Source: Deltaproteobacteria bacterium | GTDB taxonomy: Bacteria > UBA10199 > JACPAL01 | Assembly: GCA_016180845.1 (NCBI GenBank) | Contig: JACPAK010000001.1 | Location: 1-64,000 of the forward strand | Length of the DNA: 64,000 nt | Direction: 5' to 3' | Shown here: in pieces, positions 47,347 to 56,182 of the stretch | Layout: the number at the start of each line of letters is the position of its first letter | Numbering within the stretch: the stretch's first letter is position 1 | Notes under the pieces: model-generated | The model's input: only the letters and a program-made list of their open reading frames with translations | Told to the model about the DNA's origin: nothing | Database searches by the model: none | Translations under genes and position numbers: made by a program

Positions 47347-50300
47347 TAGATTACAAAATACTTACAATCCGGATGATGCAAAACAATCGCCGAGACGGAG
47401 GCCTCAGGCTCCATCATCATCCCTTCGGTTAATTGTACCCCAATATCTTCGGGATGGAGAAGCTTCCAAATCCCCTTCTGATCGTCGAGATCAGGACAGG
47501 CAGGATAACCAAAGCTGTAACGATTCCCGCGATACTTGGCCTGCAACCGATCTTTCATCGTCATCGTAACGGGATCGGGAAACCCCCAATCCTCACGAAT
47601 CCGGCGATGAAGCCATTCCGCAGCCGCCTCAGCCGTTTCAATCGCCAACGCCTGAAGGGCATGGGATTTGAGATACTCCCCCTTCGCCTTGAATTCCTCC
47701 GACTTCTCACGAATTCCCTGACCGGCACCAACGACAAAAAGCACGACATGGTCTCTTGGAGGTAGAACATAATCGGCCAGGCAAAGCCCCTCCTCTTTTC
47801 TCTGTCGATGAAAGTGAAACGTATGAATGGGGCTTTTGACATTCGGAGCGAAGAGATGCAGGTCGTTTCCCTCCGACGCCACCTCAAAGAACTGCCAGAC
47901 CGCCTTCACCTTCATGAACTTTCTCGCGTCTCCCTTAACCTCTTCAATGATCCTTTGCAGTTCGAGCGCCTTCGGATCACGCCCCTTCAAACTCTCCTCG
48001 AATTTTCCCTTGAAACCCAAATGCCTCACAAAGAGCATCTGGGGATTGATATACTCCCAGATCTCATCAAGCTGTGGAACATCGCGGATCTTGCGCTCGA
48101 GGTAGGGGGCCGGTGGAACCGGAATGTTCAGTGAAACCTGTCGGCTGCGAACAGTGGTCTCCGGTAGGGGCGCTGCTTGCTGCGCCCTATTGCTGAGGGC
48201 GAGGCTAGCCTCGCCCCTATGTAATCCCGCTTCAATCTTCTTCCTTTCCTCCCCATCCATCAGTTTATTCGCAAGACCCAACCCCGTCATCGCATCCTTC
48301 GCGTACAGGACAAGTTTTGTGTAGGATGGGGCAATTTTCTCACGTGTGTATTTATCCGAAAGCGCCGCTCCTCCCACCAGAAGAGGAACGGTAATCCCAG
48401 CCATTTTTAAATCCTCTGCCGTCACCGCCATCTGTTGCGCCGACTTCACGAGAAGCCCTGAAAGCCCAATGATGTCCGGCTGGTGCTCATGATACGCCTT
48501 GATCAACTCCTCAGGCGGCACTTTGATCCCAAGATTGATCACCTCATAACCATTATTATTCAAAATGATCTCGACAAGATTTTTTCCGATGTCGTGGACA
48601 TCCCCCTTCACCGTCGCAAGGATCACCTTCCCCTTTTTCGTCACGTCGGCCTTCTCCATAAATTGTTCGAGATAGGAAACCGCCGTCTTCATCGCCTCGG
48701 CTGATTGTAAGACCTCAGCAACAATCAATTCATTCTGATTAAAGAGCCGCCCCACCTCATCCATCCCCTTCATCAGAGGACCGTTGATGATCTGAAGCGG
48801 TGTCGCCCCCTCTTTTCGTTTGAGCTCGAGGTCTGTAATCAGACCATCCTTTGATCCTTCAATAATATACTGCGCCAGCCGCTCATCGAGTGGGAGATCG
48901 ACCCGCTGTTTCTTCTCCACCTTTACCCGATCCCGGAAGTGGGCAGCAATGGCAGCGATGTTGGATTGATTGATCGCGATACGTTGGTCGCGAGTTTGAC
49001 TTCGCCAATCAGAAATCCCCCCCTCGCTCCCCCTCTTTGACAAAGAGGGGGATGGGGGGAGATTTTCAGACCAATTAAACAACACCCTCTCCGCCAGCTT
49101 CCTCTCCTCCTCCGGAATACTCGCATACCTCTCCAACTTCTCGGAATTCACGATCGCAAGATCGAGACCAGCCTTCGTCGCATGATAGAGAAAAACCGCA
49201 TTCACCACCTCACGTGCCTGAGGCGGCAAACCAAAGGAAATATTTGAGACACCGAGGATTGTGCGGCAATTCGGAAACTCCTTCTTGATCAGACGAACCC
49301 CTTCGATCGTCTCAACCGCCCCCCCGATGTAGTTTGCATCCCCCGTGGCACATGGGAAGACGAGTGGATCAAAAATAATATCTTCTTCTGGAATCCCATA
49401 TTGATTCGTCAGGAGATCATGGGACCGCTTCGCTATGCCAAGCTTTCTCTCCCGCGTGAAGGCCTGCGCCTGCACCGGATCTTCATCGATACAACCAACG
49501 ACAAGCGCCCCCCCGTATTTTTTTGCTAACGGGCAGACCTTTTGAAACCGCGTCTCCCCCTCTTCCAGATTGATGGAGTTAATGATCGACTTTCCTTGGG
49601 CATACGTCAGCGCCTTCTCAATCGTACGTGGGTCTGTCGTGTCGATCATGAGTGGGGCTTTGATCTTCCGGACAAGTTTTTCGTAAAAGGGCTCAATGTC
49701 GTTGAGCTCATCCCGATCGGTACTCTGGAGACAGACATCGACAATCTGCGCCCCATTTTTGACCTGACGACGCCCGATATCGGTCGCCTCTTCCCACTTC
49801 TCCTCATTGACAAGCCCCTTGAAGAGACGGGATCCGATGACATTGGTCCGCTCTCCCACAATCAACGGTCGGTTATCTTCAGTTGATTCAACCAGCTCAA
49901 TGCCACTGTAAAAACACCTTCCTCTCTTGAGTTGAAGAGGACGCGGCTTCTTGCCTATAACCATTTGGGCAATGGCCCGAATATGTTTTTCCGTCGTCCC
50001 GCAACAGCCACCGACAATATTGAGCCAGCCGTTTTCAATGAATCGCTCCAACTGCCTCGCCAACGACTCTGGGGTTTCCAGATATTTCCCGTCTTCATTC
50101 GGAAGGCCGGCATTCGGATAACAGGAGACGGCAGTATTTGCGAATTCATGAATCGTCCGGATATGGTCCGTCATAAATTCCGGACCTGTGGCGCAATTGA
50201 GACCGATCGCAAAAAGATCAATGTGAGACGTCGAAACGACCAACGCATCGGCCGCCTGACCCGCGAGCATCGTCCCCATTGGTTCGATCGTCCCGGAGAT

Positions 50301-51864: not shown

Positions 51865-51877
51865 GAAACATGCATTG

Positions 51878-51895
51878 TGGAGCTGAGGGGGATCG
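51878..51895 (-). other. Duplicated 3' end of the tRNA-Ala gene
   Basis: The 18 bases tggagctgagggggatcg repeat exactly the 3' terminal part of the tRNA-Ala gene at 52039-52056, 161 bp away in the same orientation, with partial similarity extending further into the flank. No rest of a tRNA is present. The 143 bases between the copies hold several short G/C-rich inverted repeats but no gene. Confidence 0.75.
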
Positions 51896-52038
51896 CCCTC
51901 CGCCTAAACACGTTGTTATTTACGGCTTCGGGCGTCGGCACCTCACTGCCGCTCGCCGGAGTTGGCTCGCTTTTCCTCCCTCACCGGTCGGCGTTCGGTG
52001 CCGTTCGACCCCCAACGAAAAAACATATACATCCACTA

Positions 52039-52111
<73 letters not shown>

Positions 52112-53056: not shown

Positions 53057-54058
53057 TCAACGCCCCTTATTATTTCTGCAGGCCTCCAGATTTCGTCTCC
53101 ATTGGCCCCACCGGATCCTCTCCATGGCACTCCCCTGCCGGATCGCCTCAAACCCTCTTTCATCGACTTTCGCCAACTCCTCTAAATCAGGCGATCGAAA
53201 CAGCTCCCTTGGGTAGAACTCTAAGTGGCTTGATGCTTGAATCCGATCATTATAAGGACAGACCTCCTGACAGATGTCACAGCCGTAGAGGTGATTGCCG
53301 ACCATCTGTTTCTGTTGATCGGTAAACTCCCCTTTGTATTCAATCGTCAAATAAGAGATGCATTTTGTCGCATCGAGAATCCCCGGCTCGGGCAAGGCAC
53401 CGGTGGGACAGGCATCGAGACACTTTGTGCAACTCCCACATTGATCGAACGTCGGTCGATCATAGTCGAGGAGAAGGCTCGTCAGGATCTCACCAATAAA
53501 GAAAAAAGAGCCTAATCCGTTATTAATGAGGCAGGTATTCTTGCCAATCCAGCCAAGGCCCGCTTGGGCGGCATAACTCCTTTCGAGAATCGGGCCGGTG
53601 TCGACATAGGTTTTTGTCTGCGCTCCCGGATCAATTTCTTTTTGGATGAATTCAGCAAGTTGGGCAAGCTTCTCACCAACAATCCGGTGATAGTCCTCGC
53701 CCCAAGCGTAGGAAGAAATCCTAGCTCTATAGCTTTCAGGAGCGGGTGGCTGGGGGTCGGGCGCCCGGTCGCGCGCAACGGGTGAGCACGACTGGGCGGA
53801 ACCCCCAGCCAGGACCCGCTCCTGACCTGAGTAGTAGTTCAACCCACAACAGATGATCGACCGAACCCCCGGTAGGACCAGTTCTGGATCTCCCCTCTTC
53901 TCCAACCCCCTCTTGAGATAATTCATTGAGCTGGCAAACCCTTGATCAAGCCACCAACGGAAGAAATCAAAGTCGGAAACCGATTTCGCGGGGGAAATAC
54001 CGACGAGTTCGAAACCAAGTGCGTGGGCTTTTGATTTGATTCGATCGGAAGGTTGCAT
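53057..54058 (-). CDS. queG: Epoxyqueuosine reductase
   Basis: Performs the last step of queuosine synthesis in tRNA; characterised members use cobalamin and two 4Fe-4S clusters. Cluster ligands are C207, C210, C213, C217 ([12 protein letters not shown]) and C260, C263, C267 ([11 protein letters not shown]). The catalytic Asp is in [10 protein letters not shown] (D153). Between CCGLNYYS and [10 protein letters not shown] there is an extra segment (residues 79-110, [14 protein letters not shown] then [10 protein letters not shown]) encoded by a long hairpin element. The gene is divergent from the reductase-like gene at 54103, with a perfect hairpin in the gap. Confidence 0.94.
53737..53824. 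repeat. Palindromic element inside queG
   Basis: Two arms, caggagcgggt-ggctgggggt (53737-53757) and acccccagcc-agg-acccgctcctg (53801-53824), pair over 21 bp with a single 3-nt bulge. The 43-nt loop holds a smaller G/C palindrome (gggcgcccg). The element is read through in frame and adds about 29 residues absent from the family's usual sequence. Confidence 0.8.
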
Positions 54059-54840: not shown

Positions 54841-56182
54841 TCTGCAACTGACTCCCGATCAGCTTCCTCGTGAGCTCTTTGAACAACCTTATTTTTTCCT
54901 CCTGGAAACAACATTGCCTGACAGTCGAAACCGATGGACGATCGCCGGATGGAATCCCACACTCATTCTTTCGTCAACTTCAGAACCAAACCTTCTGGAG
55001 AGGCTTCGAAAAGAATTAATAAAAGAAACATCTGAAAGGGCGTATCGCGATACGCCCCTACTACCTTTTCAAGGCGGATGGATCGGTTACATCGGTTACG
55101 AGTTTTACCGCTTTCTGGGGGAGAAAATCCCCTCTCGGAAATCAGACCTGATCCCTGAAGGACTGTTTGGGTATTATGAAAAATTTTATGCTTATGATCA
55201 TGAGAAAAAGAAAGCCTACCGGGCGCCAAAAGACCAGGAGCTTCCCTCCTGGTTTCTGCGAAAATCGCAGCACCATTCGAGTCATGTCCCTCTGGTCCAA
55301 GGCTTCCCGGCGGGTCATGACTCGAGTTTAATGGTAGCGACGTCCTCGAAACCATCCGGGAAGGCTCCTGATCTTTTCAGCAATTTCTCAAAAAAAGCTT
55401 ACCTTCGGACAATTGACAAAATCAAAAACTACATCACCGCCGGTGATTGTTATCAGGTTAATCTGTCACAGAGGTTTTCTTGTGCCGTGAAGGAATCCCC
55501 GTATGACATCTATCAACGCTTAAAACAAATCAGCCCCGCCCCTTATTCGGCATTCCTGAATCTCGGTGACACCCAAATCATCTCCTCCTCTCCCGAATCT
55601 TTTCTGCAGGTGAAAAACAAAGAGGTCACAACACGGCCGATCAAAGGAACACGCCCTCGTGGAAAAACTGTCGCCGATGACGCTCGATTAAAAGAGGAAT
55701 TGACCATCAGTACGAAAGATCGAGCCGAACTCCTCATGATTACCGATCTGCTCCGTAATGATTTAGGAAAAGTCTGTGAAAAGGGATCGATTCATGTCCC
55801 CTCCCTCTGTGAAGTCGAGAGTTTTGCCCAGGTCCATCACCTGGTCTCGACGATACAAGGGACTCTCAAAGAGGATACCGACGTTATCGATCTCCTGAAG
55901 GCAACATTCCCAGGTGGTTCGATCACAGGGGCCCCGAAGATTCGGGCGATGGAAATTATCCATGAACTCGAAACGGTGCCAAGAAACGTCTATACAGGTG
56001 CGATCGGTTTTATCAGCCTGAATGGTCATGCCGAGTTCAATATTGCGATTCGAACAATGGTTATTAAGGAAGGACAGGCCTATTTCTGGGGTGGAGGGGG
56101 GATCGTCTCCGATTCGTCCCCTGAAGAAGAATACCTGGAAACAACGGTCAAGGTGGAAGGACTCGTCTCGTCAGTTTCTTAA
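54833..56182 (+). CDS. pabB: Aminodeoxychorismate synthase component I
   Basis: Converts chorismate to 4-amino-4-deoxychorismate for folate. The chorismate-binding domain spans about residues 185-445. The lysine in TTRPIKGTRPRG distinguishes PabB from anthranilate synthase (PIAGT). FPGGSITGAPKIRAME and the metal-binding Glu residues near the C-terminus are present. The N-terminal domain (FLLETTLPDSRNRWTIAGW, GGWIGYIGYEF) carries an insert at residues 68-76 encoded by a palindromic element. The ATG at 54833 is inside the upstream gene. No pabA is seen nearby; pabC is 5.4 kb downstream. Confidence 0.92.
   Translation: MIDLQLTPDQLPRELFEQPYFFLLETTLPDSRNRWTIAGWNPTLILSSTSEPNLLERLRKELIKETSERAYRDTPLLPFQGGWIGYIGYEFYRFLGEKIPSRKSDLIPEGLFGYYEKFYAYDHEKKKAYRAPKDQELPSWFLRKSQHHSSHVPLVQGFPAGHDSSLMVATSSKPSGKAPDLFSNFSKKAYLRTIDKIKNYITAGDCYQVNLSQRFSCAVKESPYDIYQRLKQISPAPYSAFLNLGDTQIISSSPESFLQVKNKEVTTRPIKGTRPRGKTVADDARLKEELTISTKDRAELLMITDLLRNDLGKVCEKGSIHVPSLCEVESFAQVHHLVSTIQGTLKEDTDVIDLLKATFPGGSITGAPKIRAMEIIHELETVPRNVYTGAIGFISLNGHAEFNIAIRTMVIKEGQAYFWGGGGIVSDSSPEEEYLETTVKVEGLVSSVS
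55038..55057. repeat. 20-bp perfect palindrome inside pabB
   Basis: gggcgtatcgcgatacgccc is self-complementary and is followed by ccta. It shares its ends (GGGCG and CGCCCCTA) with the palindrome inside metH at 48197-48219, while the inner five bases differ. It is read in frame in the N-terminal domain of PabB. Confidence 0.75.

Follow-up and report, generated by a model that had tools for sequence, protein, structure and literature searches.

A repeated palindromic element in frame within queG and other enzyme genes

A hairpin within queG

The window, the 64-kb stretch of DNA analyzed here, carries on its minus strand an ORF (53057-54058) that matches TIGR00276 (E 2.5e-97) and encodes the epoxyqueuosine reductase QueG. 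Within this gene lies a palindromic element with the following parts.

53057..54058, minus strand: queG, epoxyqueuosine reductase, 333 aa with the insert
~53736..53825, plus strand: whole palindromic element in queG; its core on the plus strand of the window is antisense to queG
53736..53743, plus strand: left outer arm TCAGGAGC, copy-specific
53744..53817, plus strand: conserved core, GGGTGGC...CCAGGACCC, 74-nt type, from the 31-copy alignment and covariance model R1
53818..53825, plus strand: right outer arm GCTCCTGA, the reverse complement of the left arm
53750..53803, minus strand: QueG residues 86-103, with pLDDT < 50 in the AlphaFold model

The core corresponds to QueG residues 81-105 and stays in frame within the ORF. 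The hairpin has the lowest folding energy in the window, -59.8 kcal/mol (90-nt windows, 15-nt steps), against a mean of -19.5 kcal/mol (SD 5.9), and full-length copies of the element occupy 23 places in the genome, so that the original prediction of an in-frame hairpin in queG is confirmed. That prediction also counted four intragenic palindromes in 6 kb. This count is borne out in part: queG and two sites in metH, which have the second and third lowest folding energies in the window (-44.1 and -42.0 kcal/mol), are prominent, whereas pabB is weaker, with no value below -41.

The two strong metH palindromes lie at 48164-48220 and 49016-49064. The former has a 24-nt stretch in common with positions 55506-55529 of contig C4 of the same genome, inside a biotin carboxylase ORF that also carries a queG-type copy (L004). 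The weaker palindromic stretches of pabB lie at 55035-55065 and 55222-55345, and the first of these contains CGCCCCTAC, the reverse complement of the metH palindrome's GTAGGGGCG motif. Elsewhere in the window, a 28-nt repeat (51868-51895 and 52029-52056, 89% identity, 161 nt apart) is possibly a partial tRNA copy; its second unit adjoins a tRNA-like sequence.

A QueG match was found in 36 of the 40 genomes searched, its own genome included. In a 29-locus alignment the insert is absent from three genomes of the same order (G002, G003, and G004), and nothing corresponding to residues 87-98 is present in the 71 usable sequences among 80 named homologues fetched, the closest named QueG found being that of a Deltaproteobacteria metagenome-assembled genome (46% identity). 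No homologue from an unrelated phylum among these 71 carries the same segment without the palindrome. Both the homologues lacking the segment and the further copies in the genome support the reading of the hairpin as an inserted element. The insert is not exactly 88 bp, as first proposed, and the net gain in length differs from homologue to homologue because the QueG loop is variable. This variation between relatives would suit an ordinary lineage-specific loop that happens to be palindromic, but much the same core at 23 places in one genome refutes that account and the folding energy, 6.8 SD below the mean, speaks against it, leaving it a practically negligible probability.

An AlphaFold model of QueG built with 40 named homologues has a mean pLDDT of 91.7, and residues 86-103 are the only segment of at least 3 residues with pLDDT below 50. 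The enzyme is predicted to fold well around a disordered insert.

Copies, host genes, and insertion sites

The genome of the window (G000) was compared with other genomes of its class (G001 and so on; loci are labeled L plus a number), many of which are draft assemblies. Two DNA searches of G000 gave 31 and 29 matches, partial copies counted. Covariance model R1 was built from 31 aligned copies with 45 invariant columns, the partial copies L026-L030 being left out of the alignments. It returned 24 rows in G000, one of them the reverse strand of another, and hence 23 distinct full-length places. ORFs of at least 255 aa span 19 of these, including L025, whose status is uncertain as it lies very near the ORF start; two more are at gene 3' ends (L015 and L021) and two are intergenic (L003 and L012). 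All 12 strong places in G003 fall within ORFs, with L036 and L045 close to the ORF start. L045 and a second G003 copy, L044, have a longer, rearranged 97-nt form with an extra piece.

The hosts, named by our reading of Pfam matches, are mostly conserved enzymes with no common pathway. In G000 they include biotin carboxylase, DnaX, a class I tRNA synthetase (read as ValS), CcmF, a GcvT-domain protein, PurL, RsmE, HemB, TilS, a CtaA-UbiA fusion, and a carotenoid enzyme; in G003, they include squalene-hopene cyclase, HisF, TruA, and MnmE. Many inserts are flanked on either side by Pfam domain sequence that remains in frame. The purL and rsmE copies (L017 and L018) have an additional outer inverted arm in common, resembling ACTGTTGATTTTGG and lying 15-30 nt beyond the core, which may be a second, nested element.

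Of the six possible reading frames of the core, one contains a stop, and the 20 exact 72-nt cores in ORFs are all read in one or another of the five open ones, a count that is partly circular since ORFs were the selection; frames were not taken from two false pattern matches (L037 and L043) or from the short rows L022-L024. As five different frames are in use, the encoded peptides differ from copy to copy. Given a coding share of ~93% in the window (a crude estimate), random insertion would place ~79% of copies in genes if, within genes, survival were limited to in-frame copies with an open frame (~1/3 x 5/6). The observed share is 19/23 (83%). This suggests either that in-frame insertion costs the host almost nothing or that genes are preferred targets.

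Other hosts were compared with their relatives in the same way. The HemB insert adds ~27 residues relative to G002, G003, and G005, and the site is empty in 6 of 8 relatives. The HisF insert is common to G003 and G005, and again 6 of 8 relatives are empty, while the RsmE insert is absent from 11/11 aligned loci. MnmE and TilS have extra residues at the insert compared with solved homologues. DnaE of G019 has 48 more residues than that of G042, from the same genus, and the corresponding 144-nt insert includes both arms. At one site of an RluA-type enzyme, the element is complete in G003 and shortened in G000. Elements at a single site of the carotenoid enzyme lie in opposite orientation in G000 and G001, which argues for independent insertions. 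The copy-specific arms had suggested insertion into pre-existing hairpins, an idea we rejected because the HemB insert (~81 nt) exceeds the 72-nt core and the DnaE insert takes in the arms.

Several of these loops hold different palindromes in different genomes. Unrelated palindromes sit in frame at the QueG insertion place in G026 and G031 (L066 and L068), at the HemB site in G001 and G004 (L168 and L169), and in the HisF loop of G017 (L180). The QueG insert of G001 has ends that by eye resemble the queG-element family in opposite orientation, with no covariance-model match. Because different palindromes are found at the same loops, and unrelated families would hardly have a target sequence in common, these loci argue that the tolerance of the protein loop, and not the DNA target, may set the insertion site.

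The loop might conceivably be adaptive, improving or regulating the enzyme that carries it, as the retention of the hisF copy in two genera might suggest. However, the five reading frames yield unrelated peptides, unrelated palindromes occupy the same loops in other genomes, and the QueG loop is predicted to be disordered, and we consider such adaptive inserts very improbable.

A class-wide family with paired arms

At an E-value of 0.01 the covariance model, whose E-values are rough, identifies 18 of 46 class genomes as carriers; at 0.001 the number is 15/46, versus 1/195 genomes outside the class, where the match is weak. The matches inspected seldom depart from a layout of GGGTGRC towards one end and GRCAGGACCC towards the other; they also share an inner motif, while the middle varies. 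The inner motif recurs in matches from 18/46 genomes. A conserved G-U pair is present in 28 of 31 copies, and the internal loops have fixed sequences; together these may point to a role for the single strand, possibly as RNA. A related group, family f13 (G019, G042, and G029), has longer arms, often perfect and 21-27 bp in length, and most of its copies lie outside long genes, although one is in dnaE. In G015, two loci that are alike (L195 and L211, 82% over 376 nt) each have two related hairpins in inverted orientation and appear composite-like.

Compared with Rfam, 8 loci gave no match at the gathering score; the 6 weak matches concerned microRNA and snoRNA families. The inner-core pattern had 0 exact matches in one-genome-per-species or viral contig collections, from which its own and near genomes may be absent. 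Among the titles and abstract openings of a limited literature collection, no description of a queG-type palindrome family was recognized. On an informal look, the ends of the element did not resemble the end motifs of integron attC sites, and this candidate was set aside. The best reading is that queG-type palindromes form a structured superfamily with no Rfam match and separate from Rickettsia palindromic elements (RPEs), given the absence of a GTAG/CGTC tag, of a Y1 transposase in G000, and of an Rfam match.

Outside the core, the arms differ from copy to copy and yet stay paired. Counting outward from the core in the 34 copies of G000, G003, and G005, positions 1 to 5 are paired in 33, 32, 32, 29, and 23 of them, whereas 26, 16.5, 18.8, 14.6, and 10.2 would be expected if arms were mixed between copies. 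In alignment A2, which leaves out L013 and L022-L024, 97.6% of cells pair, and there are 59 double changes compared with 16.9 in shuffled and at most 8 in slid alignments. Alignment A4 comprises 13 f13 copies whose core is exactly 72 nt; it omits those with a core of different length and some that escaped the pattern. In it, 98.9% of cells pair, with 133 double changes, 5 single changes, and 4 unpaired cells; shuffling gives 36.8 double changes and sliding at most 44. Double-change counts such as these are inflated by relatedness, whereas orthologue pairs are direct.

One such pair, L212 in G042 and L223 in G019, has changed at 9 of 26 arm pairs, in every case on both sides and with 0 one-sided changes, while the core differs at 3/72 positions and the flanks are 86-90% identical. 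A second same-genus pair differs by substitutions and a one-base indel that are mirrored in the two arms, and by one change that is not. A third (L193/L222) has 25 pairs the same, one one-sided difference, and no mirrored change. The more distant hisF pair has 2 of 26 positions mirrored and 14 unmirrored, most of the latter beyond its short arms. The remnant L027, in G000, forms a near-perfect palindrome: in place of the usual 3' end, it has a second half that is a mirror of the first (18/20). As single-side states are nearly absent and an indel is mirrored, the sequences favor a DNA-level process in which one arm serves as the template for the other, i.e., quasipalindrome correction, over stepwise compensation; this process has been studied in Escherichia coli (PMC7202029). 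Replacement with another copy could also have changed the arms.

The strong covariation, with the conserved internal loops, the G-U pair, and the wide recurrence of the inner motif, is also what would be expected of a functional RNA, be it a regulatory or catalytic mRNA structure or an element that is excised from the transcript or skipped during translation, and 14 of the 19 in-ORF copies in G000 lie in the core's sense. Against this stand the hosts, which have no pathway in common, the lack of an Rfam family, and the long arms, in which 5 single-side against 133 double changes leave few intermediates for stepwise compensation. In-ORF copies moreover stay in frame and free of stops, neither of which splicing or bypass would require, and for the kept frame self-splicing or bypass was set aside as the main reading. 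Overall, a functional RNA appears unlikely.

Mobility and relation to known elements

The element is repeated throughout the genome, is missing from homologous genes elsewhere, and keeps the frame of its host, and its conserved core with fixed internal loops is capped by copy-specific, near-perfectly paired arms that change together. We conclude that the queG hairpin is probably one copy of a mobile palindrome, non-autonomous and presumably selfish, that is translated inside enzymes and tolerated. The host would translate the element as an unstructured loop that the enzyme tolerates, and the surviving insertions would be those that are a multiple of three in length, have an open frame, and fall in a surface loop that accepts them. 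At the DNA level, template switching or hairpin copying may keep the arms identical, while the core may be maintained by selection for whatever moves the element. The hisF copy kept across the genera of G003 and G005 indicates that long persistence is possible and also fits a retained function. The location of most f13 copies outside long genes counts against the main reading.

Like MITEs, the element has terminal inverted repeats and no transposase of its own. No direct repeat of at least 3 nt exceeded shuffled controls around the 31 copies, giving no sign of a target-site duplication, and a 2-nt repeat signal (16/31; shuffled maximum, 14) touches the core and is attributed to its palindromic RY ends. 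In several G019 elements, such as L222 and L223, a TAATAA-like sequence flanks one side and a conserved ACTCC the other, and the true ends of elements of this family may lie further out.

REP elements moved by RAYT, a Y1 transposase, are of a kind known inside Rickettsia and Opitutus genes; intragenic REPs have been published (PMC3733652), and Y1 transposase genes occur in 34/46 class genomes. Yet no Y1 match was found in five carriers (G000, G005, G042, G029, and G017), and REP-type foot tags are rare, with GTAG within 12 nt of 1/31 copies and CGTC/GACG of 3/31. The core also exceeds the 20-40 bp that PMC3733652 states for REPs, and an origin as a RAYT-mobilized REP seems distinctly unlikely. 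REPs nonetheless resemble the queG type in being palindromes that in some cases lie in genes, among them dnaE and a recB site shared by two Xanthomonas species, as described in the same source; they differ in their tag, their shorter core, and the lack of a Y1 gene in several queG-type carriers.

As a possible, tentative alternative for its spread, the mobile palindrome might move via a folded single strand, with the structured core recognized by the mobilizing machinery and with snap-back synthesis turning the outer arms into mirror copies of each other whenever the element moves or afterwards. If so, each copy would have its own matched palindrome and no target-site duplication, and it would be compact enough for translation in enzymes.

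The closest parallel in behavior is with the palindromic elements of Rickettsia and Wolbachia, described as short, present in many copies, in frame in conserved enzymes, and tolerated (PMC2229807, PMC10969869). However, the queG-type core is 72-74 nt, compared with the 105-146 bp given for RPEs (PMC2229807), and its arms stay matched, whereas RPEs are reported to lose arm identity over time (PMC6649704). RPEs are also restricted to Rickettsiales, while queG-type carriers belong to one other class of bacteria. The element works like an RPE but is not classed as one, as it lies outside that restriction; its inner-core pattern had no exact match in the one-genome-per-species collection, from which its own and very near genomes may be absent. 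Correia/NEMIS, ERIC, and other bacterial MITEs are likewise non-autonomous and folded, some with open frames fused to genes according to PMC2229807; the queG type differs in that no target-site duplication was found and its copies in G000 are mostly intragenic (19/23). In nematomorph mitochondria, inverted repeats in coding sequence undergo concerted arm evolution, for which template switching has been proposed (PMC6649704). There, both arms are described as encoding conserved protein regions (PMC6649704), in contrast to the inserted, repeated element seen here.

In-frame palindromes in core genes have so far come mainly from Rickettsia, along with scattered intragenic REPs from several bacteria. 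The present case involves a separate bacterial class, a different element, many core enzymes, and several palindrome families in the same permissive loops. These genomes offer a natural experiment on which loops accept foreign sequence, on how selfish DNA can add protein without killing its host, and on how arms remain matched. They also carry a warning for annotation, as extra protein loops in such genomes may be mobile DNA. Taken as translated, the queG-type element would add a floppy loop of ~25-30 aa to each protein, apparently without breaking the host gene.
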